A stretch of DNA of 55,562 bases, from positions 1 to 55,562 of the forward strand of contig MEED01000039.1 in assembly GCA_001724855.1 (NCBI GenBank), in the 5' to 3' direction. Made by a program: the position numbers and the translations under genes. The notes beneath the pieces are model-generated. The model saw nothing but the letters and a program-made list of their open reading frames with translations. It was not told the origin of the DNA and made no database searches. The DNA comes from Lautropia sp. SCN 69-89. Lineage in GTDB: Bacteria > Pseudomonadota > Gammaproteobacteria > Burkholderiales > Burkholderiaceae_E. Positions 3,141-33,307 of this stretch are shown piece after piece; position 1 is the first letter of the stretch; the number at the start of each line of letters is the position of its first letter.

Positions 3141-5162
3141 ATGGCGGCCGGCCTCCGCTATTCGTTGCGCGCGCTCGGCGGGACGATGGGCGCGCAGTGG
3201 GAGCGCGAGCGGCGCGAGACGCTGTTCCTGATGCTGCCGGTCGCGCTGTCGGTGCTGCCGCACCTGCCGCACCTGCCCTGGTGGACCAGCGCGGGCTTCT
3301 TCGTGCTGTTCGCATGGCGGCTGTTGCTGGTGCTGTCGGGCCGCTGGCTGCCGCGCGCCTCGGTGCGATGGGTAGCCGCGATCGCCTGCACCGCAGCGGT
3401 CTACGCGCATTACGAGACTTTGCTGGGACGCGAGCCCGGCGTCGCGCTGCTGGTGCTGTTTCTCGGGCTGAAGCTGATGGAGATGCGCGCCCGGCGCGAC
3501 CTGTTCGTGGTGATCTTCCTCTGCTTCTTCCTGCTGCTCGCCGCGTTCTTTCATTCGCAGTCGATCGCCACGGCGCTCGCGGTGGTGGCCGCGTTGTACG
3601 GACTGCTCGCGGCGATGCTCACGATGCAGTTCCGGCAGCACGAGACGCCGATCGGGCAGCGTCTGCGCAGCGTCGGCCTGATGCTGGCGCAGGCCTTGCC
3701 GATCGCCGCCGCGGTGTTCCTGCTGTTCCCCAGGTTCGGCGGGCCGCTGTGGGGCATGTCCGCCGACACACAGCGTGCGCGCACCGGCCTGTCCGACGCG
3801 ATGACGCCCGGCAACATCGCGAAGCTCTCCGAGTCCGACGAGATCGCGTTCCGGGTCCTGTTCGATGGTGCGACGCCACCGACCGCGCTGCTTTACTGGC
3901 GCGGGCCGGTCTTCGGCAGCTTCGACGGCCTCGCCTGGCGCGCGCACGACGCGCGCTTGGCACCGACGGGCGCGACGCGGCTGGAGTTCGGCGCACGGGA
4001 CGAGGCGTTCCGGTACACGGTGACGCAGGAGGCGACCGGCCGCAACTGGCTGTTCGCGCTGGAGATGCCGGCGCGTGCCGAGTCCGATTCGGTCCGTCCC
4101 ATCCTGCGCTCAGACCTGCAACTGGTCTCGCCGACGCCGATCGCCGAGCGCCTGCGCATGACGGTGGTCTCGGTCACCGACTTCCGGGCCGGCGCCGACG
4201 AGGACGCCGCGTCGCTGCGAAGCTGGCTCGCGCTGCCGGCCGGCTTCAATCCGCGCACCGTCGGGATGGCGGCCCGCTGGCGCAACGAAGCGGGTGCCGC
4301 GCCGGACGCCGACGAGCGGCTGGTCGAGCGCGCGTTGCAGATGTTCCGCCAGCAGCCGTTCCGCTACACGCTCGAGCCGCCGCTGCTCGGTCGCGACAGC
4401 GTCGACGACTTCCTGTTCGAGTCGCGCGCCGGCTTCTGCGAGCATTACTCGAGCGCATTCGCGGTACTGATGCGGGCACTGGGCATTCCGGCGCGCATCG
4501 TCACCGGCTACCAGGGCGGCGAACGCAACCCGGTGGACGGCTACTGGCTGGTGCGGCAGGCCGACGCGCACGCCTGGGCCGAAGTCTGGCTCGCCGGCCG
4601 CGGCTGGGTGCGGGTCGATCCCACCGCCGCAGTCGCGCCGCAACGCATCGAGCGAGGCCTGCGCCTGGGCGAAGCCGTATCGGGCCAGGACGTGGCGGCG
4701 CGCTCGCTCGCGCGGCGCCTGTGGTTCAACCTGGACGCGATCGGCAACGCGTGGAACCAGTGGGTGCTGTCGTACGACCGCAGCCGACAGCAGAGCCTGC
4801 TCTCCCGGATCGGCGTCGCGGCGAGCGACTGGCGGCAACTCGCCGCGCTGCTCGCGGGCGTGCTCGCCGCGCTGATCGGCGCAGTGGCGCTGCTCACCTT
4901 GCGCCCGCACCTGCCCCGCGATCCGGTGGTGCAGGCCTACGAATCGTTCTGCCTGAGGCTGGCGGCCGTCGGCCTCGGCCGCGCCAGGCACGAAACCGCG
5001 TCGCGCCATCTCGTGCGCATCGCGCGCGCGCTCGACGATACCCGGCTGTCCGAGGCGCGACGGATCGTCGCGGCCTACGAGCGACTGCGCTACGCCGAGG
5101 CTGCGCCCGATCGTGCAGCCGTGCGACACTTGCGCAAGTCCGTGCAAGCCTTCAAGCCGTGA
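3141..5162 (+). CDS. tgpA: Transglutaminase-like membrane protein (TgpA family, DUF3488)
   Basis: 673 residues. The N-terminal region holds several membrane helices (about residues 30-200), followed by a periplasmic transglutaminase-like domain and a C-terminal helix near 575-595 (AALLAGVLAALIGAVALLTL). The catalytic triad can be read: Cys in GFCEHYSS (about 432), His in DAHAWAEVW (about 476) and Asp in RVDPTAAV (about 492). TgpA of Pseudomonas is a periplasmic-facing transglutaminase important for viability. It is the third gene of the MoxR-DUF58 operon and its end overlaps a possible GTG start of the following mltB-like gene. Confidence 0.88.
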   Translation: MAAGLRYSLRALGGTMGAQWERERRETLFLMLPVALSVLPHLPHLPWWTSAGFFVLFAWRLLLVLSGRWLPRASVRWVAAIACTAAVYAHYETLLGREPGVALLVLFLGLKLMEMRARRDLFVVIFLCFFLLLAAFFHSQSIATALAVVAALYGLLAAMLTMQFRQHETPIGQRLRSVGLMLAQALPIAAAVFLLFPRFGGPLWGMSADTQRARTGLSDAMTPGNIAKLSESDEIAFRVLFDGATPPTALLYWRGPVFGSFDGLAWRAHDARLAPTGATRLEFGARDEAFRYTVTQEATGRNWLFALEMPARAESDSVRPILRSDLQLVSPTPIAERLRMTVVSVTDFRAGADEDAASLRSWLALPAGFNPRTVGMAARWRNEAGAAPDADERLVERALQMFRQQPFRYTLEPPLLGRDSVDDFLFESRAGFCEHYSSAFAVLMRALGIPARIVTGYQGGERNPVDGYWLVRQADAHAWAEVWLAGRGWVRVDPTAAVAPQRIERGLRLGEAVSGQDVAARSLARRLWFNLDAIGNAWNQWVLSYDRSRQQSLLSRIGVAASDWRQLAALLAGVLAALIGAVALLTLRPHLPRDPVVQAYESFCLRLAAVGLGRARHETASRHLVRIARALDDTRLSEARRIVAAYERLRYAEAAPDRAAVRHLRKSVQAFKP

Positions 5163-6366: not shown

Positions 6367-7247
6367 CAATCCTCGATCGGGCGCGCCTCGACCCTGCGCA
6401 GCGCCGCCATCATCACCCCGGTGGACACGATCAGCACGATGCCGACGAGCGACACCGCGTCGGGAAATTGCCCGAAGAACAGCAGCCCGAAGATCACTGC
6501 CATGACCGAGTGCGTGTAGCCGAACGGCGCGAGCGCTGCCGCCGAACCGTGCTCGTAGGCGCGCACCAGCAGCAGGTGGCCGAAGGCGCCGATCGCGCCC
6601 ATCGCGACGAACAGCACGGCCTGCAGCCAGTTCTCGGGCAGCTGCCAGCGCCCGGGCGCCACCACCGCCAGCATCACCGCGGCGACCAGCGCGCCGATGA
6701 ACAGCGTCGCCAACCCGTTGTCGACGCCGGCCAGCCTGCGGGTGAGCAGCTGGTAGCCGACGATGAACAGCGCAGCGACCAGCGGCAGCGCCGCCGCCCA
6801 GCCGAACAGCGCACTGCCGGGACGCACGATCAGCAGCACGCCGCCGAAACTGAGCGCCAGCGACAGCCAGGCGCCGCGCGGCGCGCGCTCGTGCATCAGG
6901 GCCACCGCGCCGACGGAAACCAGGATCGGCGCGATCGAGACGATCGCCGTGGCTTCGGCCAGCGGCAGGTAGGCCACGCTCGAGAAGAAGCACACCGAGG
7001 ACATGGCCAGGCACACGCCGCGCGCGACCTGCAGCGAGGGCCGCCGCGTGCGCAGCAGCGCGCGCCCCATGCGCGGCATGAAGATCGCCGCCATGACCAG
7101 GACGTGGAAGACGTAGCGCGCCCAGGCGACCAGCAGCGGATGGTGGGTCTGCGACAGGTACTTCGCCACGCTGTCGAGAAGCGCGAAGCTGGCGCAGGCT
7201 CCGACCAGCAGGGCGATGGCGCGCAGCGGCGCGTGGTCGGCGGGCAT
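6366..7247 (-). CDS. DMT superfamily transporter, EamA type
   Basis: 293 residues with about ten hydrophobic helices arranged as two EamA repeats, the standard size and layout for drug/metabolite exporters (RhaT/YdcZ-like group). The first repeat starts AIALLVGACASFALLDSVAKYLS and the second is near LVGYQLLTRRLAGVDNG. The substrate cannot be predicted. It starts 21 bases after the cysM stop on the same strand, so the order oxyR-cysM-eamA may be one transcript; export of a cysteine-pathway metabolite is possible but speculative. Confidence 0.85.
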   Translation of the reverse strand: MPADHAPLRAIALLVGACASFALLDSVAKYLSQTHHPLLVAWARYVFHVLVMAAIFMPRMGRALLRTRRPSLQVARGVCLAMSSVCFFSSVAYLPLAEATAIVSIAPILVSVGAVALMHERAPRGAWLSLALSFGGVLLIVRPGSALFGWAAALPLVAALFIVGYQLLTRRLAGVDNGLATLFIGALVAAVMLAVVAPGRWQLPENWLQAVLFVAMGAIGAFGHLLLVRAYEHGSAAALAPFGYTHSVMAVIFGLLFFGQFPDAVSLVGIVLIVSTGVMMAALRRVEARPIED

Positions 7248-7268
7248 CTGCAGGAACGCAGGCGGCGG

Positions 7269-8183
7269 CTATCCCGGAAACACGCCAGTGGAGAGATAGC
7301 GGTCGCCGCGATCGCAGACGACGAACACGATCGTCGCGTTCTCGGCCTCGCGGGCCAGTCGCAGCGCGATGCAGCACGCACCGGCCGCCGAGATTCCGCA
7401 GAAGATCCCCTCCTCGACCGCCAGGCGCCGCGCCATTTCCTCGGCATCGGCCTGCGAGACCGACTCGATGCGGTCGACGCGCGCGTGCCGGTAGATCTTC
7501 GGCATGTAGGCTTCGGGCCACTTGCGGATGCCCGGGATCGACGACCCCTCGGTCGGCTGCGCGCCGACGATGCACACCGCCGGATTGCGTTCCTTCAGGT
7601 AGCGCGACACGCCGGTGATCGTGCCGGTCGTGCCCATCGCCGAGATGAAGTGCGTGACCTGGCCCTTCGTGTCGTCCCAGATCTCGGGGCCGGTGGTCTC
7701 GTAGTGCGCCGCCCAGTTGTCGTCGTTCGAGAACTGGTCGAGCACGCGGCCGCGCCCCTCGCGCTGCATCTGGTCGGCGAGGTCGCGCGCGCCCTCCATG
7801 CCCTGCTCGCGGCTGACCAGCACGAGTTCGGCGCCGTAGGCCTTCATCGACTGGCGCCGCTCGAGCGACAGGTTCTCCGGCATGATCAGCACCATCCGGT
7901 AGCCGCGCAGCGCCGCCGCCATCGCCAGCCCGATGCCGGTGTTGCCCGAAGTCGCCTCGATCAGCGTATCGCCGGGGCGGATCTCGCCACGCGCCTCGGC
8001 GCGCGCGATCATCGCCAGCGCCGGGCGGTCCTTGACCGATCCGGCCGGGTTGTTGCCCTCCATCTTGCCCAGCACGACGTTGCCCCGGGGATCGCCGTCG
8101 GCGCCGGGAAGGCGCTGCAGCTTCACCAGCGGCGTGCGGCCGATGGTCTGTTCGATCGTCGGATAGGCTGGGCGCTCGCTCAT
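7269..8183 (-). CDS. cysM: Cysteine synthase B (O-acetylserine sulfhydrylase)
   Basis: 304 residues, a fold-type II PLP enzyme. The PLP lysine is Lys51 in NNPAGSVKDRPAL; the phosphate loop TSGNTGIGLA and the substrate loop SAMGTTGTITG are present. The motif EGIFCGISAAGA near the C terminus fits the CysM rather than the CysK group. It condenses O-acetylserine with sulfide or thiosulfate to give cysteine or S-sulfocysteine in the cytoplasm. Its start lies 16 bases from the oxyR stop, placing it in the same operon as a peroxide sensor, which fits thiol supply under oxidative stress. Confidence 0.92.
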   Translation of the reverse strand: MSERPAYPTIEQTIGRTPLVKLQRLPGADGDPRGNVVLGKMEGNNPAGSVKDRPALAMIARAEARGEIRPGDTLIEATSGNTGIGLAMAAALRGYRMVLIMPENLSLERRQSMKAYGAELVLVSREQGMEGARDLADQMQREGRGRVLDQFSNDDNWAAHYETTGPEIWDDTKGQVTHFISAMGTTGTITGVSRYLKERNPAVCIVGAQPTEGSSIPGIRKWPEAYMPKIYRHARVDRIESVSQADAEEMARRLAVEEGIFCGISAAGACCIALRLAREAENATIVFVVCDRGDRYLSTGVFPG

Positions 8184-17512: not shown

Positions 17513-20500
17513 ATGCTGATAGACTCGACCGGCCCTGTTCCCGCACTGCCCGACCGATCCATGCTCCCCCGCGATGTGCCCGCCTCCGACGAGGCGCCGG
17601 GCAGGCCGCTGCAATCGGTGCTCCGGCGAGCGATCCGCATCCGCGGCGCGCGCCAGAACAACCTGAAGAACGTCGACCTCGACATCCCGACCGGCGAGCT
17701 CGTCGTGGTGACCGGCGTCTCGGGTTCCGGCAAGTCGTCGCTGGTCTTCGACACGCTGTACGCCGAGGGGCAGCGTCGCTACGTCGAGACCTTCTCGGCC
17801 TACGCCCGGCAGTTCCTCGACCGGATGGACAAGCCGCAGGTCGACCGGATCGAGGGCGTGCCGCCGGCGATCGCGATCGACCAGACCAATCCGGTGCGCA
17901 CCTCGCGCTCCACGGTCGGCACGATGACCGAGCTGAACGACCACCTGAAGCTGCTGTTCGCCCGCGCGGCGACGCTGCATTGCAGGCGCTGCGCACGCCC
18001 GGTTCGGCGCGACACGGTGGCGAGCGTTCGCGCGGCGATCGCGGCGCGCTCGGGCGCGACCGGCGATCCGCGGCTCGTGGTCAGCTTCCCGATTCCGGTT
18101 CCGGCGAACTTCACCGAGGACGAGATCCGCACTCACCTGCTGGCGCAGGGCTACACGCGCGTCCATACGGTCGAGAGCGGAGCCTCCGGCCGGATCCTGC
18201 ACGTCGTGCAGGACCGCTTCCGCCTTGGCGCGGTCGAGGCGGCACGGGTGTCCGACGCCGTCGAGGCCGCGCTCGAGCGCGGCCACGGCCGCATCGCGGT
18301 GCACGTGCTCGACGGCGACGGCAACGAGACGGATCGCTGGCGCTTCAGCAGCGGCCTGCATTGCGCCGACTGCGACATCGCCTACGCGGACCCGCTGCCG
18401 AGCCTGTTCTCCTTCAACTCGCCGCTCGGCGCCTGCGAGACCTGCCGCGGCTTCGGCCGCGTGATCGGCATCGACCTCGGCCTGGTGATTCCCGACGAGG
18501 CCAGGACGCTGGCCGAGGGCGCGGTCAAGCCCTGGCAGACCGAAAGCTTCCGGGAGTGCCAGCGCGACCTCGCGAAGTTCGCGGCGAAGGCCGGCGTGCC
18601 GATGGACCTGCCCTGGCGCGCGCTCTCCGACGCGCAGCGACGCTGGGTGATCGAAGGCGGCGACGACTGGACCGGAAAGTGGGAGACGCAGTGGTACGGC
18701 ATCCGCCACTTCTTCGACTGGCTCGAGTCGAAGGCATACAAGATGCACATCCGGGTGCTGCTGTCGAAATACCGCTCGTACACGCCCTGCCCGGCCTGCC
18801 GGGGCGCACGGCTGAAGCCCGACGCGCTGCTGTGGCGCGTCGGCTCGCTCGCGCAGGCGCAGGCGGCGCTGTCCGGCGACGCGACGTACGCACGCTTCGT
18901 GCCGGCCGGCGTCGAATGGAGCGCCGCGCAGTTGCAGCAGGTGGCCGGCCTGTCGATCCACGACCTGATGCTGCTGCCGATCGACCGCGTCGCCGGCTTC
19001 TTCGATGCGTTGAAGCTGCCGGCGCCGCTCGACGAGGCCACCGACCTGCTGCTGGTCGAGACCCGCGCGCGGCTGCGCTACCTGCAGCAGGTGGGGCTCG
19101 GCTACCTGACGCTCGATCGCCAGTCGCGCACGCTGTCGGGCGGCGAAGTGCAGCGGATCAACCTGACCACCGCGCTCGGCACCTCGCTGGTGAACACGCT
19201 GTTCGTCCTCGACGAGCCTTCGATCGGGCTGCACCCGCGCGACATCAACCGGGTGATCGGCGTCATGCAGCGCCTGCGCGATGCCGGCAATTCGCTGGTG
19301 GTGGTCGAGCACGATCCGCAGGTGATGTTCGCCGCCGACCGGATGATCGACATCGGCCCCGGCCCGGGCGAGCGCGGCGGGCACGTCGTCTTCGACGGCG
19401 ACCCGAAGGCGCTGCGCGCCGCCGGCACGCTGACCGGCGAATACCTGTCGGGACGCAGGCAGGTCGACACCGGCCACCCGCGGCCGGTGAGTCCGTCGAC
19501 GAAGAAGCTGCTGCTCGAAGGCGCGCGCGAGCACAACCTGAAGAACGTCTCGGTCGAGATCCCGCTCGAGCGGCTGGTCTGCCTCACCGGCGTCTCGGGC
19601 AGCGGCAAGTCGACGCTGATGCAGAACGTGCTGCTGCCCGCGTTGCTGAAGGCGCGCGGCAAGCCTGCCGAGTCGCCGGGCGCGCACGACCGGCTGCTCG
19701 GCGACGACTGGATCGGCGACGTGGTCTTCGTCGACCAGTCGCCGATCGGCAAGACCGCGCGCAGCAACCCGGTCAGCTACGTCGGCGCGTTCGATCCGAT
19801 CCGCAAGCGCTTCGCCGCGGCCGATTTGTCGAGGGAGCGCGGCTACACCGCCGGCACCTTCAGCTTCAACGCCGGCGACGGACGCTGCCCGACCTGCGGC
19901 GGCAACGGCTTCGAGCACGTCGAGATGCAGTTCCTGTCCGACGTCTACCTGCGCTGCCCCGACTGCGACGGCAAGCGCTTTCGCGCCGAGGTGCTCGAGG
20001 TCACGATCGCCGGCCGCGACGGTCGCGAGCGCTCGGTCGCCGACGTGCTCGAGCTCACCGTGCGCGAGGCGCTCGGGATCTTCGCGGGCGAGCACGACGT
20101 GTGCACCAGGCTCCAGCCGCTGGCCGACGTCGGCCTCGACTACCTGCGCCTCGGCCAGCCGGTGCCGACGCTCTCCGGCGGCGAAGCCCAGCGACTCAAG
20201 CTCGCCGGCTTCCTCGCGCAAGCCGCGAGCCAGGGTCTCGCGCAGCCTGCCGCTCCCGGCCATGCCTTCGCGAAGACCGGCCGCCGCGGCACGCTGTTCA
20301 TGTTCGACGAGCCGACCACCGGACTGCACTTCGACGACGTCGCGAAGCTGCTGCGAGCCCTGCGCAAGCTGCTCGCTGCCGGCCACTCGCTGCTGGTCAT
20401 CGAGCACAACCTCGACCTGGTCCGCGCCGCCGACTGGCTGATCGACCTGGGGCCCGAGGGCGGCGACGCCGGCGGCCGCGTCGTCGCGACCGGCACCCCC

Positions 20501-23467
20501 GAACAGCTGGCTGCCGAAGCGCGCACGCACACGGGCAAGGCGCTGGCGCAGTACGCCGAAGCACTTCGGCACGAGGCCGCGCGACCCGACACCGCCCACG
20601 CGCCGGCATCCGCCTCCCTTCGGGCCGAAGAGCCTGCGGGGACGCCGCTGCAGAGCATCCTGCGCGAGCGCGCGCGCGAATCGATCTTCGTGCACCGCGC
20701 CCGCGAGCACAACCTGAAGAACATCGACGTCGAGATCCCGCGCGACAAGCTCACCGTGATCAGCGGCGTCTCGGGCTCGGGCAAGTCGACGCTCGCCTTC
20801 GACGTGATCTTCGGCGAGGGCCAGCGCCGCTACCTCGAATCGCTGAACGCCTACGCGCGCCAGTTCGTGCAACCGGCATCGCGGCCCGACGTCGACGGCG
20901 TGTTCGGCATTCCGCCGACGGTGGCGATCGAGCAGCGCACCAGCCGCGGCGGACGCAAGAGCACCGTCGCGACGCTGACCGAGATCTACCACTTCCTGCG
21001 GCTGCTGTACGTGAAGCTTGGCCAGCAGTACTGCCCCGACTGCAACCTGAAGATCGAGCCGCAGGGCTTCGACGCGATCGCCGCGCGCATCCTGCGCGAC
21101 TATCGCGGACGGCACGTCGGCCTGCTCGCGCCGCTGGTCGTCGCGCGCAAGGGTGTCTACACCGACCTCGCAAAATGGGCGAAGGCGAAGGGCTTCGCGC
21201 ACCTGCGCGTCGACGGCCGCTTCCTGCCGACCGACCGGTTCCCGCGGCTCGACCGTTACGTCGAGCACGACATCGAGCTGCCGGTGGCCGACCTCGTCGT
21301 CGATCCCGCAGACGAGGCACAGTTGCGCGACGCGCTGCGCCGCGCGCTCGACCTCGGCAAGGGCATCGTGATGGTCGCCTCGCCGCTCGAGGCGCTGCGC
21401 GAAGCCGTCGATCGCGGCGACGCACAGGCCCGCGAGCAGGCCTCGGCAGCGCTCGAAACGAGGCTGTTCTCGACGAAGCGCGCCTGCTCGTCGTGCGGCG
21501 CGAGCTTCCCGGAACCCGATCCGCGGATGTTCTCGTTCAATTCGAAGATCGGCTGGTGCCCGGCCTGCCTCGGCACCGGCGTGAAGCTTCCATACCTGCC
21601 GACGCTCGATCCGAAGGGGCGTTCCGACGAGGACTCGACCACCGAAGCGATCGGTGCGATCGCCGAGAAACTGGCCGACCAGGTCGCCGCGCAGGCCGAA
21701 GGCGAAGCCGCACCGGCGCCAGGGGCCGCCGCGTCGGCCGGCGAGCCCTGCCCGGCCTGCGCCGGCAAGCGCCTGAACCGCACCGCGCTCGCAGTGAGGC
21801 TGCTCGACCTGTCGATCGCCGAACTGACCGCGATGCCGATCGGCGATTGCGCGCGCTGGCTGAAGCAGGTCGGCTTCGCCGGCCGCGAGCAGGAAATCGC
21901 GCGCGACGTGCTCGCGGAGATCCGCTCGCGGCTCGCGTTCCTGTCCGACGTCGGGCTGGGCTACCTCGCGCTGGACCGGGCCGCGCCGACGCTGTCGGGC
22001 GGCGAAGCGCAACGCATCCGGCTGGCCGCGCAACTCGGCTCGAACCTGCAGGGCGTCTGCTACGTGCTCGACGAACCGACGATCGGGCTGCATCCGCACG
22101 ACAACCGCATCCTGCTCGACACGCTCGAAGCGCTGCGCGACAAGGGCAACACGCTGCTGGTGGTCGAGCACGACGAGGACACGATCCGCCGCGCGGACCA
22201 CGTGATCGACATCGGTCCGGGCGCCGGCAGGCTGGGCGGGCGCATCATCGCCGCCGGCCACCACGAGGAACTCGCGACCCACCCCGACAGCCTCACGGGG
22301 CGCTTCCTCGCCCACCCGCTCGCGCACCCGCTCGGCGCGCCGCGCCCGGTTCCGTCCAGCGGGGACGCCGACTGGCTCGTATTGCGCGGCGCCCACCTGC
22401 ACAACCTGCGCCACGTGAACGCGCGCATCCCTCTGCGTCGCATGACCGTGGTCACCGGGGTCTCGGGTTCCGGCAAGTCGACGCTGGCGCGCGACGTGCT
22501 GCTCGCCAACGCCGCCGCGCAGGTGCAGGCGCGCAACCAGCGCAAGGCCGCGCCGCCGCTGGCCGGCGTCGATCGCATCGAGGGCTGGGAGGGCATCACG
22601 CGGGTGCTCGAAGTCGACCAGACGCCGATCGGCAAGACCCCGCGCTCGTGCCCGGCGACCTACGTCGGCTTCTGGGATGCGATCCGGCGCCTGTTCGCCG
22701 ACACCAGCGAAGCGCGCATCCGCGGCTGGAGCACGAGCCGCTTCAGCTTCAACACCGGCGGCGGACGCTGCGCGGTCTGCGACGGACAAGGCCAGCAGAC
22801 GATCGAGATGAGCTTCCTGCCCGACGTGAAGGTGCTCTGCGATGCCTGCGGCGGGCGGCGCTTCAACCCGGAGACACTGGAACTGCGCTTGCGCGGCCGC
22901 AGCATCGGCGACGTGCTCGCAATGGACGTCGACGAAGCGGTCGGGTTCTTCGCGGCGCACCCTTCCATTGCCCACCCGCTGCGGCTGTTGCAGGACGTCG
23001 GCCTCGGCTACCTCACGCTCGGCCAGCCGAGCCCGACGCTGTCGGGCGGCGAGGCGCAGCGCATCAAGCTGGTCACCGAGTTGTCGAAAGTGCGCACCCG
23101 CGCAGAGGGGGCCGACGACGATCCGCGGATCGCGCGCTCGCGCGCAAGGTCGCTCGCCGCCGGCAGGACGCCGCCGCCCGGCCCGCACACGCTGTACGTG
23201 CTCGACGAACCCACGGTCGGCCTGCACATGGCCGACGTCGAGAAGCTGATCCGCGTGCTGCACCGCCTCGTGGACGCCGGCAACACGCTGGTGGTGGTCG
23301 AGCACAACCTCGACATCTGGGCCGAAGCCGACTGGATCGTCGACCTCGGGCCCGACGGCGGAATCGACGGCGGACGCATCGTCGCGGCCGGCACGCCGGC
23401 GGAGCTCGCGGCCACCGGCGCGACCCACACGGCGCGGGCGCTCGAGCAGTTCCTGCGCACGCGCTGA
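17513..23467 (+). CDS. uvrA: Double-length excinuclease ABC subunit A-like protein
   Basis: About 1984 residues, twice the normal UvrA length, built from two UvrA units in one chain. Four Walker A motifs (GVSGSGKS at about residues 69, 692, 1084 and 1649) and four signature motifs (LSGGE at about 540, 886, 1493 and 1842) give four ABC ATPase heads. Both units keep the C-terminal zinc-finger module: [13 protein letters not shown]...CPDCDG in the first, [13 protein letters not shown]...CDACGG in the second. Normal UvrA works as a dimer that finds bulky DNA damage, so this is in effect a fused dimer. The second unit has a shorter, Ala/Glu-rich insertion (near 1400). The start is uncertain: ATG at 17513 or 17561, neither with a clear ribosome site. 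Confidence 0.88.
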
Positions 23468-24975: not shown

Positions 24976-25632
24976 TCAGATCTTCCTGAACGTGCTCAGC
25001 TTGATGCCCTCGCGCGCGATTGCCGCGGCGACCGCCGGGTGCGCCGCGACGCGATCGACGTAGGCCTTGTACACGGGCAGCGAATCGGGGTCGATGCCCG
25101 CGAATCCGCCCCAGCGCAGCAGCGTGAGCGCGTATGCGTCGTGAAACGACAGGCGCTCTCCGAACCAGAACGGACTGGCCGACGCGATCCAGCCCTGGAT
25201 GCGCTCGAGCTGTGTGCGATAGAGCGCCGCATTGAAGCGCCTGATCTCGGCCTGCGTCGCCTCGCCGTCGCAGAACCGGTCGGGCATGAACACGTGCGTG
25301 AACGTGGGGTGCACGGTGTTGTTCATCCACAGGAATTGCGACATCGCCTGGGCCCGTGCCCAGGATTCGGTCGGCAGCAGCCCCGCCTGCGGATAGCGTC
25401 GGTCGAGGTAGTCGCAGATCGCCACGATCTGCGACAGCGGCCTGCCGTCGACCACCAGCGTAGGCACCTGCGCGTTCGGGTTGATCGCAAGGTACTCGGG
25501 CGCGCGCTGCTCGCCCTTGTGAAGCTTGACCATGCGGGCGACGAAGTCTTCGCCGGTAGCCGCCTTGATCGCCTCGAGCGCAACGTGCGGCACGAACGAG
25601 CAGGCCCCGGGGCCATAGTGCAGTTCGAGCAT
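24976..25632 (-). CDS. Glutathione S-transferase family protein
   Basis: 218 residues with a thioredoxin-like N-terminal domain (LELHYGPGACSFVPHVALEAI, about 1-80) and a helical C-terminal domain. The glutathione-site segment NAQVPTLVVDGRPLSQIVAI is clear (cis-Pro in QVP). The residues GACSF at the start of the first helix resemble beta-class bacterial GSTs. It converges on the acyltransferase gene (57-base gap) and is divergent from the broken RraA-like gene. Confidence 0.87.
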   Translation of the reverse strand: MLELHYGPGACSFVPHVALEAIKAATGEDFVARMVKLHKGEQRAPEYLAINPNAQVPTLVVDGRPLSQIVAICDYLDRRYPQAGLLPTESWARAQAMSQFLWMNNTVHPTFTHVFMPDRFCDGEATQAEIRRFNAALYRTQLERIQGWIASASPFWFGERLSFHDAYALTLLRWGGFAGIDPDSLPVYKAYVDRVAAHPAVAAAIAREGIKLSTFRKI

Positions 25633-26352: not shown

Positions 26353-26364
26353 ATCGGATCCGAT
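26353..26364. promoter_or_regulatory. Perfect 12-bp palindrome, candidate enhancer-binding site
   Basis: ATCGGATCCGAT is a perfect dyad centred about 100 bases upstream of the predicted sigma-54 transcription start (near 26458). This is the usual distance for an activator site. It sits in the short non-coding region before the glycine-rich gene, and a sigma-54 activator is encoded in the same locus. No other copy was noticed, so the match to that regulator is untested. Confidence 0.4.
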
Positions 26365-26430
26365 GCAGGTCGCAGGCTCGAGGCATCGGCCCGGTCGCCA
26401 TGGAATCAGTCACTTGGCGCGCCCTGGCGA

Positions 26431-26447
26431 ACGGCACGTTCCTTGCA
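26431..26447 (+). promoter_or_regulatory. Sigma-54 (RpoN) promoter of the glycine-rich secretion locus
   Basis: The sequence CGGCACGTTCCTTGCA has GG at 26433-26434 and GC at 26445-26446, exactly ten bases apart, and agrees with the consensus TGGCACG-N4-TTGC at nearly every position. Transcription should begin near 26458, giving a leader of about 64 bases before the ATG at 26522. A sigma-54-dependent activator gene (31940-33307) belongs to the same locus. Confidence 0.75.
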
Positions 26448-26521
26448 TGAGCTGTCAGCGGGAGGAAGCGCGTAGCGCCTCCTCGCCGTGCTTCCACGAC
26501 AGCTCTTCGAGGAGATCCCGA

Positions 26522-28675
26522 ATGAACAAGACTCTCATTGCCACGGCGATCGCGCTGGCGTTCGGCTCGGGTTCGACATTCGCGAATCCGGCCAATGGCA
26601 ACAGTGGCGATCCGAACGGTGCGGTCGCCCAGACCGCGACGGCCACCGCAAACCAGGGCGGCACCACCAGCCCGCAGGCCAACGAGAACTCGTCGGCGTC
26701 GATGGACACCGACAACAGCAAGAACGCCTCGGCCGGCGGCAGTTCCGCGATCGACGGTGGAACCGCCCAGGCATGGTCGGATTCGAACAACACGCACACA
26801 CTGACGATGCAGCGCTGGGATACCCGGATCGTCGCGATTTCGAACCTGAGTGCGACCGTCACCGGCAATACGGTCCGGAACATCGGAAACAATGCCTGGA
26901 ATACCGGTAACGCGAACGCCGGGAATGGCGGTAACGGCTACGGAGGCAACGGCGGCACCGGCAATGGCGGCAGCGGCGGCAACGGCGGCAACGGTGGCAG
27001 CGGCGGCAACGCCAGCAACGGCAGCGCCACCAACGGCAGCGCGTCAGCCGGCGCGGCCAGCAACGGCAGCGCCACGAACTATGGCGCCATCGCCGGCGAT
27101 GGCGGGCGCGGCGGCGACACGGGCAACGCCAACGGCGCCAACGGCGCGCGCGGCGGCGGGGCCGCTGCGTTCGGCGGCCACGGCGGCGATGCCGGGAACT
27201 CGACCTCCAGCGGCACCGCCACGACCAACGGTGGCAACGGCGCCGCCGGCGCGGTCGGAGCAGCAGGCGGCAGCGCCACCATGGGCAGCACGACGAACGG
27301 CAGCGCCTCCAATGGCTCGGCCAGCGCGGGCGACGGCGGCAATTCCGGTCGGGCCGGCAACGCCTCGGCGTCCGGGGCCCAGGGCGGCTTCGCGCTCGGC
27401 GGCCTCGGCGCAGGCGGGAGTGCCGGTGACTCCGGTACGGGGGGCACTGGCAATGGCGGCTATGGTGGAACCGCCGGCAACGGGGGTACCGGAATGGGCG
27501 GTGCCGGCGGTGGCGGCAATGGCGGCAACGCCGGCAATGCGACGGGCGGCGCCGGGGGGAGCGGCGGAAGCGCCGGCAGCAGCAGCACGCACGCATCGGT
27601 GGGCAACGCCGGTTCGGGCGGCAATGGCGGAGCCGGCGGCACGGGTACCGGCGGCGGCGCCTTGGGCGCAGGTGCCTTCGGTGCGAATGCAGCCGGCATG
27701 GCCGCCAACGACGGCCGTAACGACGGCGATTCCACCGCCACCTCGACAGGCGGAGGCAATACGGGTGGCGCGAATACCGCCGGCGGCGGCACGGGCGGCG
27801 CCGGCGCAACCGGCGCGGCCGGCGGCGCAAGTGCGCCGGCCAGTGCGGCCGCAGCCACGAGCACGGGAGCGGTCGGCGCGACCGGCGCGACCGGGACGAG
27901 TGCCGGGGGCCTCGCCGCAGCCGCGGCCGGGGCAGCCGGGACGGGCGGGGCCGGCGGTACAGGCGGTGTCGGCAACGGCGGTAGCGGCGCCCAGAGTGGC
28001 ATGGGCGGCACCGGCGGTGCCGGGACGGGTGCATCCGGCACCGGCGGGGCCGGCGGCACGTCGGTCGCGATGAACACCAGCGGAACGGGCGGAGCCGGCG
28101 GTGCTGCCACCAACGGCAGTGCCACCAATGGTGGCGCGAGCGCGTCGCAGGGTTCCGGCGGCAACGGTGGAAGCGGGGGTGCGGGCGGCGCTGGTGGCGC
28201 AGGCGGAACGGCGTCCGGCGGAACCTTCTCGCCAAACGGCGGCACCGGTGGTACCGGCCAGGGCGGTGTGGCGGCCGGGGGCGCGGGCGGCAACGGTGGG
28301 GCCGCGACGAACGTCGGCGGCGCCGGTGGTGCAGGCGGCAACGCCAGCAACGGCAGCGCCACCAACGGCGGTTCGTCGACCAGCGCCTCGAATGGTTCGG
28401 CAACCAATGGCAGCGCGACGGCCGGTAGCGGCGCGGTCGGCGCGACCGGCGGCACCGGCCAGGGTGGCACGGGCGGCACCGGCGGCGTCGGCAACGGAGC
28501 GGTCGGCGGCGCGGGCGGCCAGAACACGGTCACCGCCGGCACGTTCGACATGTCGAACACGATCAACGGATCGTTCTCGAACAGCGCCGGCATCACCGTG
28601 GCGAGCCAGAACAGCGGTATCGCGGCGCTCGTGCAGCAAAGCGTCAACGTGCAGGCCAACCTGGCAGTTCGTTGA
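26522..28675 (+). CDS. Secreted glycine/asparagine-rich repeat protein, putative extracellular fibre subunit
   Basis: 717 residues. A signal peptide (MNKTLIATAIALAFGSGSTFA) is followed by an Asn/Ser/Thr-rich segment to about residue 140 (for example SATVTGNTVRNIGNNAWNTG). A very long tract of GG-x-GG, NGG and NGSATNGSA units fills about 140-670. The last 35 residues form a distinct tail (GSFSNSAGITVASQNSG, then ALVQQSVNVQANL). There is no cysteine-rich or catalytic domain. The tail aligns without gaps to the C terminus of the next gene's product. Composition resembles PGRS-type and other structural glycine-rich proteins. Function is inferred: a secreted matrix or amyloid-like subunit exported by the porin of this locus. 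It has its own sigma-54 promoter. Confidence 0.8.
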   Translation: MNKTLIATAIALAFGSGSTFANPANGNSGDPNGAVAQTATATANQGGTTSPQANENSSASMDTDNSKNASAGGSSAIDGGTAQAWSDSNNTHTLTMQRWDTRIVAISNLSATVTGNTVRNIGNNAWNTGNANAGNGGNGYGGNGGTGNGGSGGNGGNGGSGGNASNGSATNGSASAGAASNGSATNYGAIAGDGGRGGDTGNANGANGARGGGAAAFGGHGGDAGNSTSSGTATTNGGNGAAGAVGAAGGSATMGSTTNGSASNGSASAGDGGNSGRAGNASASGAQGGFALGGLGAGGSAGDSGTGGTGNGGYGGTAGNGGTGMGGAGGGGNGGNAGNATGGAGGSGGSAGSSSTHASVGNAGSGGNGGAGGTGTGGGALGAGAFGANAAGMAANDGRNDGDSTATSTGGGNTGGANTAGGGTGGAGATGAAGGASAPASAAAATSTGAVGATGATGTSAGGLAAAAAGAAGTGGAGGTGGVGNGGSGAQSGMGGTGGAGTGASGTGGAGGTSVAMNTSGTGGAGGAATNGSATNGGASASQGSGGNGGSGGAGGAGGAGGTASGGTFSPNGGTGGTGQGGVAAGGAGGNGGAATNVGGAGGAGGNASNGSATNGGSSTSASNGSATNGSATAGSGAVGATGGTGQGGTGGTGGVGNGAVGGAGGQNTVTAGTFDMSNTINGSFSNSAGITVASQNSGIAALVQQSVNVQANLAVR
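26930..28530 (+). repeat. Glycine-codon repeat tract inside the secreted protein gene
   Basis: Imperfect short repeats built on GGCAACGGCGGC-type units and on blocks coding for N-G-S-A-T-N-G-S-A recur throughout this stretch. Three blocks with GCCAGCAACGGCAGCGCCA-like sequence occur near 27010, 27055 and 28345. The tract is prone to slippage and to assembly compression, so its length may differ between strains or be misassembled. Confidence 0.7.
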
Positions 28676-28739
28676 CCGGCGGCTCGAAGGGCAGCCCCGC
28701 CTTCGCGCTCCGTCCGGCTTCATTGGAAGGAGAGCACGC

Positions 28740-29120
28740 ATGCGTAACACGATTCGAACCGTCGCGGCGGCGATCGCGCTGGGGCTGGCACTTCCGCAGG
28801 CCGTTCTGGCCGACGACGCGGCCCAGACCCCGACATCGGGCGAAGCCGCTTCGTCCGATACGCGGATCGACCCCACTTTCGGTGTCCTGACGAGCGACGA
28901 GCGGCTCGCCGACGAGCGCGGCGGCGCCGAGCTCCAACTGAACGAGAACAACGCCTCCGCGGTGGTTCGCGACAACGTGGCGAGCAATCTGCGTACCGGC
29001 AACAACACGATCAGCTCGGGTGCGTTCTCGAACAGCAACGGCGTTCCGATGGTCGTCCAGAACACGGGCAACAACGTCGTGATCCAGAACTCGACGATCC
29101 TCAACCTTCATCTGCAGTAG
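28740..29120 (+). CDS. Small secreted protein with RGG site and fibre-type C-terminal motif
   Basis: 126 residues. The signal peptide ends near residue 24 (ALPQAVLA). The segment LTSDERLADERGG ends at Gly61-Gly62, which looks like a double-glycine leader site. The rest is Asn-rich (ELQLNENNASAVV) and ends in GAFSNSNGVPMVVQNTG then NVVIQNSTILNLHLQ. That tail matches the tail of the glycine-rich protein at 12 of 32 ungapped positions, including Gly, Phe, Ser-Asn-Ser, Gln-Asn and Gly. It may be a nucleator or minor subunit, comparable in role to FapB; this is an inference. It lies 64 bases downstream of the glycine-rich gene and 7 bases before the peptidase gene. Confidence 0.8.
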   Translation: MRNTIRTVAAAIALGLALPQAVLADDAAQTPTSGEAASSDTRIDPTFGVLTSDERLADERGGAELQLNENNASAVVRDNVASNLRTGNNTISSGAFSNSNGVPMVVQNTGNNVVIQNSTILNLHLQ

Positions 29121-29127
29121 GCGCGCG

Positions 29128-29862
29128 ATGGACCTTTCCCGGCGATGGCTGCGGCGCAGATTCGGGTTGCTGTCACAGGCCATTCTGGCCTGGACGATGC
29201 TCGGCGCCCCGATGCCGGCGGCGGCAGCCGAAGGCGCATTCTTCCTTGCCGAAACGGGTCATGCCTACCTCATGCCGGTGCGCACGATCAAGGAGATTGC
29301 CCGAAGCCGCGCGTTCCGGACCACGCTGCACCAGCAATACGATTTCAGTTGCGGTTCGGCCACGGTGGCAACCCTGCTGACCTACCATTACGGGCACCCG
29401 GTGGACGAGGCGACGGTGTTCCGCGCCATGTACGACAACGGCGACCAGGCGAAGATCCGCACCGAGGGGTTTTCGCTTCTGGACATGAAGCGCTACCTCG
29501 AGTCACACGGGTACCGTGCCGATGGCGTCGAGGTTTCCCTCGACGAACTCGCGGGCGCGCGCGTGCCGGCGATCGCGCTCGTGAGCGACAACGGTTACCG
29601 GCACTTCGTGGTCGTCAAGGGCATCCAGGCAAACCGCGTCGTGCTCGGCGATCCGGCGCTCGGCACGCGCATCCTTCCACGCCAGCAGTTCGAGTCGATC
29701 CGCGTCGGCGGCATCTTTTTCGTCATCCGCAATCATCGCGAATCCGCACGCTTCAACTCGCCGGCCGACTGGAACGTGCGACTTGCCGCGCCACTCGCGG
29801 TTGGCGTTGCACGCGATGCGGGGACATTCGCCCTCGGCGTTCCCGATCCCAATCGATTCTAG
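29128..29862 (+). CDS. Secreted C39 family cysteine peptidase, FapD-like
   Basis: 244 residues with a signal peptide or N-terminal anchor (LLSQAILAWTMLGAPMPAAAA) and one C39 peptidase domain. The catalytic set is Cys75 in QQYDFSCGSATVATLL, His159 in GYRHFVVVKG and Asp175 in LGDPALGT. C39 domains normally sit on ABC transporters and cut after Gly-Gly; this one is free-standing and periplasmic, as FapD is in Pseudomonas amyloid operons. Both neighbouring genes encode secreted proteins with an internal RGG site, which makes them likely substrates. Confidence 0.88.
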   Translation: MDLSRRWLRRRFGLLSQAILAWTMLGAPMPAAAAEGAFFLAETGHAYLMPVRTIKEIARSRAFRTTLHQQYDFSCGSATVATLLTYHYGHPVDEATVFRAMYDNGDQAKIRTEGFSLLDMKRYLESHGYRADGVEVSLDELAGARVPAIALVSDNGYRHFVVVKGIQANRVVLGDPALGTRILPRQQFESIRVGGIFFVIRNHRESARFNSPADWNVRLAAPLAVGVARDAGTFALGVPDPNRF

Positions 29863-29881
29863 ACCCCAATTCGGAGGTGTC

Positions 29882-30670
29882 ATGCGTCATCGCACCTTCC
29901 TGCTTACGCCGATCGGCGCGCTGGTTGCGGCGCTTCTGGCCAGTCCGGCCGCCGCGGCCCACGACTCGGATTCCACCGGGATCGACCGGTGGCCCGCAGT
30001 TTCGGAGAGCACGTTGTCGCACGTGCGCGGCGGACTCGATGCCGGTGCGCTCGTGGCGGCCTTCGCCATCGAGCGACTGGTGCGCATCGACGGCGAAATC
30101 GTGGCCGGCACGCGGCTGGTGATAAGCGGGCTCGAGCGGCTCGCCAGCGGCGGTCGGCCGAACGTCGAATTGATCGGCAGCCTTGCGCAGCTGATCCGCG
30201 TGGACCCCGGCAACCTGGCGGCCGATCTCGGCGGAATCGGCCCCGGCCAGGCTGCGCCTGGCAGCACCAGTGGCAGCACAGGTACGGTTTCGGCGACCGG
30301 CTTCGCGTCGGGATCGCTCTCTCAATTCGGGGATGCACTGTCTCGGGCGGTCCAGGACGCCAACGGCGGGCAGGCCGCGCCGCGCGGCACCGTCGCCACG
30401 CCGGCACCGGCCGCGACCCTCTCCTCTGCGCCGGCGCCAGCGCTCGCAAGCCCGTCGATCCAGTCGGCAGGCAACGCGCGCCAGATGATCGTGGTATCCA
30501 CGATTCCGGATGCAGGCACGCTGTCGATGGCGATCCAGAATTCGGTCCAGGCAACACGGATCGAAGCGCGGACCAGCATCGATGCGACGCTCAACAGCCT
30601 GAGTGCGTTGCGCGCTGCCGATTTCGCCGCATCGCTGCGCCAGCAGGCGATCGATTCGATCCGGCGTTGA
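29882..30670 (+). CDS. Secreted protein of unknown function with RGG site
   Basis: 262 residues, preceded by a strong ribosome site (GGAGGT). The signal peptide ends near residue 26 (LLASPAAAA). VSESTLSHVRGG places a double-glycine at residues 50-51, followed by a hydrophobic/amphipathic segment (LDAGALVAAFAIERLV). The middle is Ala/Pro/Ser-rich. The C-terminal part contains MIVVSTIPDAGTLSMAIQNS (to residue 221), which weakly echoes the IQNS end of the small secreted protein. I do not recognise the family. Its place after the C39 peptidase is that of FapE in Pseudomonas, but no real similarity can be claimed. Confidence 0.75.
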   Translation: MRHRTFLLTPIGALVAALLASPAAAAHDSDSTGIDRWPAVSESTLSHVRGGLDAGALVAAFAIERLVRIDGEIVAGTRLVISGLERLASGGRPNVELIGSLAQLIRVDPGNLAADLGGIGPGQAAPGSTSGSTGTVSATGFASGSLSQFGDALSRAVQDANGGQAAPRGTVATPAPAATLSSAPAPALASPSIQSAGNARQMIVVSTIPDAGTLSMAIQNSVQATRIEARTSIDATLNSLSALRAADFAASLRQQAIDSIRR

Positions 30671-30672
30671 AT

Positions 30673-30703
30673 GCGCGGGCGACGTGCGTCCACTCGCCCG
30701 CGC
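30673..30703. terminator. Bidirectional terminator hairpin
   Basis: GCGCGGGCGA (30673-30682) and TCGCCCGCGC (30694-30703) form a perfect 10-bp GC stem with an 11-base loop. It fills the 39-base gap between convergent genes, the secreted 262-residue protein and the porin, so it can end both transcripts. There is no U-tract. Confidence 0.55.
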
Positions 30704-30709
30704 CGCGCG

Positions 30710-31946
30710 TCAGAAGGTCATCGGCAGGCGCAGCGTCAACTCGACGTCGGGGCTGTCGTCGGTCACCCCGATGCCGAGGGACAGATTGACGCTGGTCTTC
30801 TGAGCGCATCGTGCCCAGCTGCAGCCGCCCCGTTCGCGCCAGTACTCGCGCCACCGACTCGGGATCGCGCTGGCTGATCTCCCCCACGATACTGTGCTGA
30901 TAGCCGATGCTGAATGCCGCGCGCTCGTTCAGGGCAAGCCCCATGCCCATGTTCAGATCGAGGACCGCGCCCGGGCGGACCCTGCCGAATCCCTGGCCGA
31001 CGTCACGCGACAGGCTGTACATGTAGGCGGCACCGCCGAAGAACACCGCAGGATCGGACGGGTAGAGGAAGGTCACTCCTCCCTGCACCGCGTCGAATCC
31101 GGTTCCGGTGGGAAGCCGGGTCTGCAGGCCGGTGGTGGGGTCGATCGGTACCTCGAACGCGCCCTCACCGGTGCGCGACTTGTAGCGCAGGTAGCCGATG
31201 TAGACCGGGTTGTCGCCACGAAATGCATTCAACTGGTAGCGCCCCGCAAGCTCGACATCGCCGATCCCCGATCCGCTGGTGTCGAAGAACTCGTCGGTGA
31301 CCGAAGGCGTCGCCAGCGGACGTGACAGGGTGGAACTGCTCGCCCTCACCCACGGCAGCTTGGCCTCGACCTCCAGCCGGTTCGTCAGCCCGTAGCGGCC
31401 GGTCAGGGCGAACGTGGAGATGTCGCGCGAGACCCGTCGGACGTCGATCAAGCCGATGGTGATGGCCGGAAGCACGCTGTATCCGACCAGCGCCACGCGA
31501 TTGTCGGTCGCATGCACGAACTGGTAGGCGGGCTCGATGACGAACCGGCCTCGCGGCGTCAGCGCGGTCGGCTCGTCGAAGATCCTTGCCGAAGCCGCCG
31601 GGCGTTCCGGCGCCGGCGGTGCCTCGCCCACCGGCCCGGATGGCGCCTGGGCGACCGCTTCGGACGCGCCTCGCCCCGTCATCCTGTCGAGCCGGTCGTC
31701 GCCGCGCAGGCGTCGCTCGTAGAGCTTGCGCTCGCCATCGAGGCGGCGACGCTCCTCGGCCACCGCGGCTTCGAGTTCGCGCAACCGGCGCTCGCCGTCC
31801 TCGAGCCGTCGCTCGATATCGCCAAGCCGCACCTGCGCGTCGACTTCGGCTTGCGCGCCGACCGTGGGCGAAGCCGCAGCAATTCCCAGCCCCACCGACA
31901 CCCCCAGCAATGCCCGCCCGGAACACCGTCCGATCCCGGCTACCAT
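30710..31946 (-). CDS. Outer-membrane beta-barrel transporter, FapF-like (frameshift near the C terminus)
   Basis: About 411 residues if corrected. A signal peptide (to about residue 31) is followed by a coiled coil (36-88, DIERRLEDGERRLRELEAAV and onward) and then a barrel of alternating strands from about 130. This is the FapF layout: an N-terminal periplasmic coiled coil and a barrel that secretes amyloid subunits. As written, the frame breaks at position 30800: after RLQLGTMRS the frame runs on into other sequence. The neighbouring frame instead gives KTSVNLSLGIGVTDD, then VELTLRLPMTF and a stop at 30710. That is a proper last strand ending in Phe. One extra (or two missing) bases explain this. 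The start overlaps the regulator stop, so the two are coupled. Confidence 0.75.
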
Positions 31947-33307
31947 GATTTCCCTCCGTTCGCGCCCGTCCGCCGCTCCCTGGGCCGGATGGCGAGGCGC
32001 TGCGCCAACCGGTAGAGCGTGACGCGCGACACGCCGAGTTCACGCGCGGTCGCTGCCATGTTGTAGGTGTTGCGATCGAGCGCGGCCATGATGACATCGC
32101 GTTCCGCGTGCTGGCGTGCCCTGGAAAGCGGGATCGACTCGCACTGGCCGCGCGCGCTATTCAGGCCGAGGTCTTCGGCCGAGATCAAGGCGCCCTCGCA
32201 CATGATCATCGCCTTCTGGACGCGGTTGACGAGTTCGCGAACATTGCCGGGCCACGCATAGGCGCGCATGGTCTCGATCGCCTCCCGCGAAAATCCGCGG
32301 ACCGCCGGCGCACGATAGCCCCGGTAGGTGTCGAACACGTGCCCCGCCAGCGCTTCGATGTCCTCGGGTCTGTCCCGCAGCGCGGGCACCACCACATGCA
32401 GCACGTTCAGCCGATAGTAGAGATCCTCGCGAAAACGGCCCGCGCGTACCGCCTCTGCGAGGTCCATGTGCGTGGCGGCGACCACGCGCGCATCGATGCG
32501 GATCGGGGTCGAGGAGCCGATCCTCACGATGGTCGACTCCTGCAGGAACCTGAGCAGACTCGCCTGCGACTCCAGCGGCAGGTCTCCGATCTCGTCGAGG
32601 AGAATCGTGCCGCCGTCGGCGGCCTCGAGGCTGCCGATCACGCGATGGTGCGCCCCGGTGAACGAACCCTTCTCATGCCCGAAAAGGTGTACCTGCATCA
32701 AGGATGCGGGTATCGCGCCGCAATTGACAGGCACGAATGCGCGATGCCCCCGCCGCGACTGACGATGCACCGCCTGTGCGACCAGTTCCTTTCCGGTGCC
32801 ACTCTCGCCGCTGATCAGCACGGGCGCGTCGACACGCACGACCTTCTCCAGGATGCGGTAGAGCGCGCGCATGGGCTGTCCCGTGCCGACCATGCCGAAC
32901 TGGCCTTTCCCGGATTCGGCAAGGCTCTCAACCTGGCGGCGCAGCATCGCCTTGCCGTGTGCGTGGCCGAGCGCGTATTCCAGACGGTGCACGTCGAGCG
33001 GCAAGGTGTGGAAGTCGAGAAAGAGGTTCGCCAGTGCGCGCGCAACACGCGGGTTCCTGATCGCAGCCGACGTCGTGACCGCGATCCAGTCGATTCCAGT
33101 GCGCGCCAGCGCCTCGTCGAGGTTCGAGTCCTCGAACAGGCCAGAATCGCCGATCACCGCGATCCCGATCAGGCAACCGCCGAATCCGGCGTTCTCGTCG
33201 AGCGCATCACGCTCGACGCATATGGGCTCCCATCCGGCTGCCTTCAGCAACGGAACCAGGTCAACGCATTCGCGTCGAGCCCCGAGCAGCAAGATGCGGC
33301 GGCTCAT
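31940..33307 (-). CDS. Sigma-54-dependent transcriptional activator, VpsR-like
   Basis: 455 residues. Residues 1-135 form a receiver-like domain (SRRILLLGARRECVDLVPLL) without the usual phosphorylatable Asp pattern, as in VpsR. The AAA+ domain has Walker A GESGTGKE, the sigma-54 contact loop GSFTGA (Ser in place of the more common Ala), Walker B GGTILLDEIGDL and the switch region RFREDLYYRLNVL. A Fis-type helix-turn-helix closes it (NMAATARELGVSRVTLYRLA). VpsR and the related BerB respond to cyclic di-GMP and control matrix genes; the same is inferred here. The probable target is the sigma-54 promoter at 26431. It overlaps and precedes the porin gene. Confidence 0.85.
   Translation of the reverse strand: MSRRILLLGARRECVDLVPLLKAAGWEPICVERDALDENAGFGGCLIGIAVIGDSGLFEDSNLDEALARTGIDWIAVTTSAAIRNPRVARALANLFLDFHTLPLDVHRLEYALGHAHGKAMLRRQVESLAESGKGQFGMVGTGQPMRALYRILEKVVRVDAPVLISGESGTGKELVAQAVHRQSRRGHRAFVPVNCGAIPASLMQVHLFGHEKGSFTGAHHRVIGSLEAADGGTILLDEIGDLPLESQASLLRFLQESTIVRIGSSTPIRIDARVVAATHMDLAEAVRAGRFREDLYYRLNVLHVVVPALRDRPEDIEALAGHVFDTYRGYRAPAVRGFSREAIETMRAYAWPGNVRELVNRVQKAMIMCEGALISAEDLGLNSARGQCESIPLSRARQHAERDVIMAALDRNTYNMAATARELGVSRVTLYRLAQRLAIRPRERRTGANGGKSW

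Follow-up and report, generated by a model that had tools for sequence, protein, structure and literature searches.

What does a secretion locus of the Fap type export when its largest gene encodes a long glycine-rich protein in place of a recognisable amyloid subunit? The question is raised by six genes (P1–P6) between positions 26,353 and 33,307 of a 55,562-nucleotide stretch – the window – of contig MEED01000039.1 from Lautropia sp. SCN 69-89. An earlier reading of the bare sequence, here termed the original prediction, proposed that a C39 peptidase (P3) and a coiled-coil outer-membrane barrel (P5) export a glycine-rich protein (P1) rather than FapB or FapC, and that the product might be a fibre or matrix outside the cell; the six genes lie where that reading had placed them. 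With reasonable confidence our data indicate a Fap-type secretion system that is sister to the Pseudomonas Fap amyloid system and whose major export is a low-complexity, here glycine-rich, chain; the exported protein is probably destined for an outer coat or biofilm. Numbers prefixed L and G denote loci and genomes.

The barrel and its conserved neighbourhood

Evidence that the locus is of the Fap type came firstly from P5 (30710–31946, minus strand), predicted to combine a coiled coil with an outer-membrane barrel. A phmmer comparison with the FapF crystal structures gave 2.4e-20, and the best NCBIfam model is that of FapF (NF058560; 6.7e-28 and 97.6 bits, below the cut-off of 700). Against this stands the state of the gene itself: near 30,800 (30780–30830) the window is short of 23 bases relative to three relatives, the broken open reading frame (ORF) runs into a wrong C-terminus while the last strands sit in another frame, and no second copy was found in the window genome. 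The gap may be either an assembly error or a real mutation.

Because the frame is broken in the window, we modelled the intact protein of Zeimonas arvi, together with 28 relatives. The model (mean predicted local distance difference test score, pLDDT, 79.4) has one helix at residues 25–78, followed by about a dozen long strands. Its best 18 matches in the Protein Data Bank (PDB) are all FapF chains (best E 2.1e-22), with template modelling scores (TM-scores) by target length of 0.78–0.87, those for the 5o67 chains being 0.82–0.84; the next match is the COG4313 channel 4rl8 (4.1e-13, TM-score 0.74). The structural comparison that the original prediction had proposed thus returned FapF, and not an unrelated porin.

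The second line of evidence is the company that the barrel keeps. Among at least 594 candidates from GTDB species genomes, at least 556 stretches encode a C39 relative, and the best 80 of these became our named loci. Since they are the best matches to a C39 query built from the glycine-rich group they speak to synteny among close relatives; the unselected test is a set of 349 genomes of the order. Presence was scored with hidden Markov models (HMMs) from the window and its near relatives, wherever the flank sufficed: in the best 80 loci P1 was found in 66 of 67, P2 in 76 of 76, P4 in 79 of 79 and P5 in 60 of 60. The single P1 miss (L107) is a locus with an over-long call of the C39 ORF, and P1 is nonetheless seen there. 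The order P1–P2–C39–P4 recurs at every one of the 80 loci where the flank allowed a check. The barrel follows on the same strand in 35 of 60 loci and on the opposite strand in 16; in the remaining 9 it lies upstream. These loci come from Zeimonas, Cupriavidus, Ralstonia, Variovorax, Polaromonas, Aromatoleum, Azoarcus, Dechloromonas, Noviherbaspirillum, Duganella, Schlegelella, Pseudoxanthomonas, Lysobacter, Luteimonas and others.

In the unselected set a profile of the P1 tail matches 26 of the 349 genomes, and all 26 are among the 28 that carry this type of C39 (about 180 bits or more, a cut set after seeing the list; 50 of the 349 match at E<=1e-10). The hypergeometric value for this co-occurrence is 3e-37, which, the genomes being related, is not a strict probability. 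The two genomes with the C39 and no tail match are G536, where the C39 lies near a contig end, and G674, where a sister-type locus has a tail-like end below threshold. Setting aside the fragmented genome G440 (3 of the 30 tail matches), all 27 remaining tails sit 442–2327 bases from the C39. The expectation that relatives would keep this neighbourhood was therefore borne out. FapD-like C39s as a whole occur in 49 of 369 genomes of the class (E<=1e-10) and in 25 of 299 of the phylum (E<=1e-20). In its own genus the C39 is present in the window genome and in 5 of 17 others, so the locus is patchy there. In Cupriavidus metallidurans CH34 the genes P1–P5 are found on the megaplasmid. Plasmid pCME4A9I of the alphaproteobacterium Croceicoccus marinus (L139, 5408–9672) also has five genes in this layout, the cargo there being rich in Asn, Ser and Asp.

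The presumed cargo and its partner proteins

A central issue is the nature of P1 (26522–28675, plus strand), a 717-residue low-complexity protein that we presume to be the exported cargo. It contains 238 Gly (33%), 138 Ala, 78 Ser, 77 Thr and 74 Asn, with 2 Lys, 1 Glu and no Cys, and has no match in Pfam or NCBIfam at E<=1. Its glycine-rich, low-complexity composition resembles that of the mycobacterial PE_PGRS proteins, but P1 has no PE domain and a different genetic setting; we ruled out kinship on the lack of any Pfam match at that threshold. Among 69 P1 proteins (two of them copies) the body varies from 24 to 39% Gly and the length from 306 to 1057 residues, while signal peptide and C-terminus stay alike. 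In the sister loci L155–L157 the cargo body is instead 26–30% Asn and 23–27% Ser, with 1–4% Gly. P1 ends in a single recognised unit (28517–28672, plus strand; 52 residues as profiled), which hhalign relates to the end of P2 with 94% probability (E 1.2e-7; shuffled controls <=2.0%).

The small proteins P2 (28740–29120, plus strand; 126 residues, with one C-terminal repeat-like unit) and P4 (29882–30670, plus strand; 262 residues) provide the bridge to known Fap components. At E<=1 P2 has no match in either Pfam or NCBIfam; P4 has none in NCBIfam and in Pfam only TrbC (0.044, below cut-off). We therefore relied on our own HMMs, built from 10 FapB, 8 FapC and 11 FapE sequences; loci L020–L023, which duplicate L029, L028, L030 and L031, were left out of these counts and of those for leader and FapE motifs. 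With a threshold of E<0.01 the FapB HMM matches 28 of 83 P2 proteins but no sequence among 166 reversed or shuffled ones; at the same threshold the FapE HMM matches 10 of 84 P4 proteins and no sequence among 168 controls. By hhalign, P4 aligns with FapE at 82% (E 1e-5) around an RG motif in the N-terminal segment, with shuffled controls at or below 1.0%; a comparison of P2 with P4 went unused, a shuffled control having scored equally high. P2 thus appears to be a remote relative of FapB and P4 a remote relative of FapE. This alters the proposal of a cargo standing in for FapB and FapC: FapC is indeed undetectable, but P2 appears to be a remote relative of FapB, and the end of P1 shares its unit.

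Several observations weigh against so close a tie to the Fap subunits. The hhalign match of P2 to FapB is weak (21%, E 1e-3, with shuffles reaching 8.8%), and the FapE HMM also matches 18 of 83 P2 proteins at E<0.01, so that the choice between FapB and FapE is not a clean one. The FapC HMM matched 4 of 83 reversed P2 sequences at E<0.1. At E<1 a model of the FapB/C repeat picks up 20 of 86 P2 proteins and 5 of 310 controls; no P2 falls below 0.01, and of 69 P1 proteins it picks up none (both totals keep the duplicate loci). Compared directly by hhalign the P1 tail matches neither FapB nor FapC, being linked to them only through P2; P1 as a whole has no detectable similarity to FapC (our FapC HMM finds 0 of 67 at E<0.1), and its AlphaFold model has no confident fold (mean pLDDT 38.5).

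The strongest of the alternatives is that P1 is a silk- or PGRS-like surface coat or adhesin that does not polymerise and whose tail is a mere signal for export or anchoring. A body that is glycine-rich in the main group and Asn/Ser/Asp-rich in L155–L157, between ends that stay alike, is what such a coat would lead one to expect, as is a protein with no predicted fold. It is harder to reconcile with the cargo of locus L152, which carries the tail-like unit four times in tandem – an arrangement as in amyloid subunits, and needless for an export signal – and with the resemblance, through P2, of the tail unit to the FapB repeat. We regard the non-polymerising coat as possible, though doubtful. 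The L152 cargo itself matches the FapB model weakly (E 0.023). In this locus two cargo genes (3758–4660 and 7155–8144) with four tail-type units, similar to one another and in tandem, flank the C39, P2 and P4 genes; judged by sequence, they form a natural bridge from subunits with one unit to subunits built of repeats. In two further loci, L059 (5755–9386) and L105 (5225–9498), P2 is preceded by a tandem pair of P1-type genes.

A sister of the Fap operon

If the machinery is that of Fap, is this simply a fap operon? P3 (29128–29862, plus strand; 244 residues) is a free-standing cysteine peptidase for which Peptidase_C39 (PF03412, 7.8e-20) is the only Pfam family above cut-off, and its catalytic Cys, His and Asp are kept in 86 of 86 cases. 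The best NCBIfam model is FapD (NF058616; 4e-38, 131 bits, below the cut-off of 330), a cut-off that none of the 369 class genomes reaches. In a C39 tree that includes the window, the FapD sequences form a clade (bootstrap and Shimodaira–Hasegawa-like approximate likelihood ratio test, SH-aLRT, 98/99) with one unclassified sequence, L011, inside it; the C39s of the glycine-rich and sister loci form another (97/94) that lies beside, not inside, the FapD clade. The bootstrap had not fully settled, and the glycine-rich sequences are not firmly supported as a single group. The FapC model NF058558 finds no match in P1 of the window and none in 20 genomes carrying the locus, against 6 of 6 Fap genomes. 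The separate C39 clade, the unmet NCBIfam cut-offs and the missing FapC together identify a sister system and not a fap operon. The "Fap-type" system of the original prediction is thereby refined to a sister of Fap.

The likenesses to the Pseudomonas system (fapABCDEF; FapF structures 5o65, 5o67 and 5o68) include a C39 with a signal-peptide-like start, a coiled-coil barrel, partners that appear FapB- and FapE-like, the general gene order, and homologues of the sigma-54 activator P6 near 9 of the 11 Fap-labelled loci (L140–L150) that came from our search of the class, all but L149 and L150. NCBIfam models were applied to two of these loci, L140 and L142, the latter giving FapC at 9.2e-63, FapB at 1.6e-23 and FapE at 1.1e-22. 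Set against these are a long glycine-rich chain with one recognised terminal unit where no FapC was found, one unit in P2 where FapB has about three, a leader that is mostly RGG in P2 and P4 and RGR or RGK in FapE, and the separate C39 clade. Loci L149 and L150 encode long multi-repeat FapC-like proteins, and profiles found no FapF-like barrel or sigma-54 activator in their 11-kb stretches. In true fap operons fapA is often missing, according to PMC3792158.

One could still argue for a fap operon that has diverged, with P1 as its FapC forming an ordinary cross-beta amyloid. Gene order is similar in general (Fap loci run mostly B-C-D-E-F, with C before B in L147), and the remote homologies of P2 to FapB and of P4 to FapE point the same way. 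Yet P1 has one recognised unit, the C39s stand apart in the (not fully settled) tree, FapC was found in none of 20 genomes with the locus, and the two kinds of locus can share a genome: in G072 a glycine-rich locus stands beside one of Fap, and in G674 a sister-type locus beside a Fap-like one. We consider a diverged operon unlikely; a plain fap operon we rejected on the absence of FapC and the C39 tree. In G072 the two loci (L183 and L144) lie on one contig; those of G674 are L184 and L185.

The Fil system of Acinetobacter (pilus subunit FilA, C39 peptidase FilB, and FilC) likewise pairs a C39 with a protein of the FapF family, but its models match the window less well (FilB 8.8e-29 against FapD 4e-38; FilC 1.5e-4 against FapF 6.7e-28). 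Dueholm 2013 (PMC3792158) placed FapD and FapF within larger families, and a section of Rouse 2018 (PMC6173800) described, for five additional phyla, homologues of fapD and fapF that are colocalised away from known fap operons. The FapD–FapF pairing is thus already in print; the section mentions neither a cargo nor a leader motif or promoter. Searches of open-licence papers in PMC, supplements aside, turned up no description of the glycine-rich branch, its leader motif or its promoter. What is new here, at the level of sequence, is a double-glycine leader in most P2 and P4 proteins and a sigma-54 site conserved upstream of P1.

Predicted processing, regulation and export

The leader bears on the question of what the peptidase cuts. 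Taking the first RGG within 400 residues, the motif is present in 78 of 84 P4 proteins, with Leu at −7 in 75; a residue of the set V/I/L/M/F occupies −12 in 73 of them and −4 in 67. The window P4 fits in full (V −12, L −7, V −4). Of 83 P2 proteins 81 have RGG; Leu occupies −7 in 80 and V/I/L/M/F occupies −12 in 76. Among P1 proteins an RGG occurs in 49 of 67 and never with Leu at −7. In FapE a pattern search finds RGR or RGK at the matching place in 7 of 11. The motif of P2 and P4 agrees with the contacts Val-4, Leu-7 and Leu-12 reported from a C39–leader co-crystal in PMC6363468. From the presence of this leader in both partners, and from a C39 of the FapD type, we predict that P3 cuts P2 and P4, which are its likely substrates. 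Three details detract from so tidy a picture: only 47 of the 81 P2 proteins with RGG have a hydrophobic residue at −4; the window P2 has L −7 and the two glycines while −12 and −4 are not hydrophobic; and P5, with RGG in 36 of 83, has Leu at −7 and a hydrophobic −12 in 26 of them (−4 being hydrophobic in 1).

A C39 enzyme together with a double-glycine leader is also found in peptidase-containing ATP-binding cassette (ABC) transporters, and P2 and P4 might on that account be bacteriocins or signal peptides, released at the leader as the products of the locus. However, P3 is free-standing and has a signal-peptide-like start, the barrel is FapF-like, and P1 accompanies the locus in 66 of 67 cases. 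Such an exporter is very improbable, and we rejected it because none of nine window proteins scanned belongs to an ABC-transporter family. Least credible of all, to the point of being negligible, is a chance assembly of porin, peptidase and unrelated secreted genes: the flanking genes do differ between relatives, but we rejected it on the conserved gene set and the co-occurrence of tail and C39, to which the FapF-like barrel model may be added.

Regulation provides a further thread. P6 (31940–33307, minus strand; overlapping the start of P5 by 7 bases) is a sigma-54-dependent activator with PF00158 (3.2e-65), a VpsR-type domain (PF20161, 1.2e-7), PF25601 and PF02954. A −24/−12 promoter-like site with one mismatch to the pattern lies at 26432–26447 (plus strand), starting 90 bases ahead of the P1 start codon. 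Within the window alone the pattern is only slightly above chance (12 matches against 6.8 expected, and 4 of 100 shuffles yield as many), so support for the site is comparative. Upstream of P1 in 67 loci, the window included and the duplicates L021 and L023 left out, sites with at most one mismatch occur in 16 (0.3 expected from dinucleotide shuffles), with at most two in 30 (1.7 expected) and with at most three in 59 (7.5 expected), mostly 73–133 bases before P1; upstream of P2, P3, P4 and P5 in the loci compared the pattern is near background. A point against this reading is that, of the 60 relatives in which it could be judged, only 30 have a P6 homologue within the fetched stretch.

Returning to a Fap-type system that exports a low-complexity chain, the parts suggest the following scheme. 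P6 would activate a P1–P4 operon from the sigma-54 promoter. P1–P4 would cross the inner membrane by the Sec pathway; signal-peptide-like N-termini, judged by eye, are present on all four and on P5. In the periplasm P3 would cut P2 and P4 after the Arg-Gly-Gly leader, and this cleavage would license export through the FapF-like barrel P5, by which P1 too would pass. At the surface the FapB-like P2 may act as nucleator, with P1 anchored or polymerised via the C-terminal unit that the two have in common, leaving its glycine-rich body as an extracellular matrix or fibre coat.

Outside the locus, the window and G002 have in common a gene resembling those for glutathione S-transferase (GST; 24976–25632 in the window, 3202–3864 in L018) and other flanking genes. 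In other relatives the flanking genes differ, which indicates that the locus or its flanks have moved. Further upstream, an ORF of about 1,968 residues (17561–23467) resembles two UvrA halves fused head to tail, the segments VSGSGKS, QRRY and AYARQF each being repeated.

What might the locus mean for Fap-type export more generally? In Pseudomonas FapD acts in the periplasm and its cysteine is needed for FapC secretion, as given in PMC5557850 and PMC6173800; there its target was stated to be unknown in 2017 and 2018, with FapE suspected. Expression of fap in E. coli has also been carried out (PMC5557850). Among the papers listed by a search of the open-licence PMC literature, no later answer was evident. 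We tentatively suggest, giving the idea somewhat less than even weight, that a widespread branch of Fap-type export in beta- and gammaproteobacteria makes extracellular material out of interchangeable low-complexity chains, glycine-rich or Asn/Ser/Asp-rich, that share a single polymerising cap. Its periplasmic C39 would then be a genuine peptidase of double-glycine leaders, with the nucleator P2 and a gate or adaptor, P4, as its targets – as FapD would likewise act on FapE in Pseudomonas. If this is true, cleavage of FapE would answer what FapD cuts, and a leader kept in two partner proteins turns the question of the substrate of FapD-type enzymes into a simple matter for mass spectrometry. 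Our data suggest moreover that the FapF-type route is not tied to a FapC-like amyloid, since the body of the exported chain may be glycine-rich or Asn/Ser/Asp-rich, a possibility of relevance for biofilm biology and for protein-based materials.

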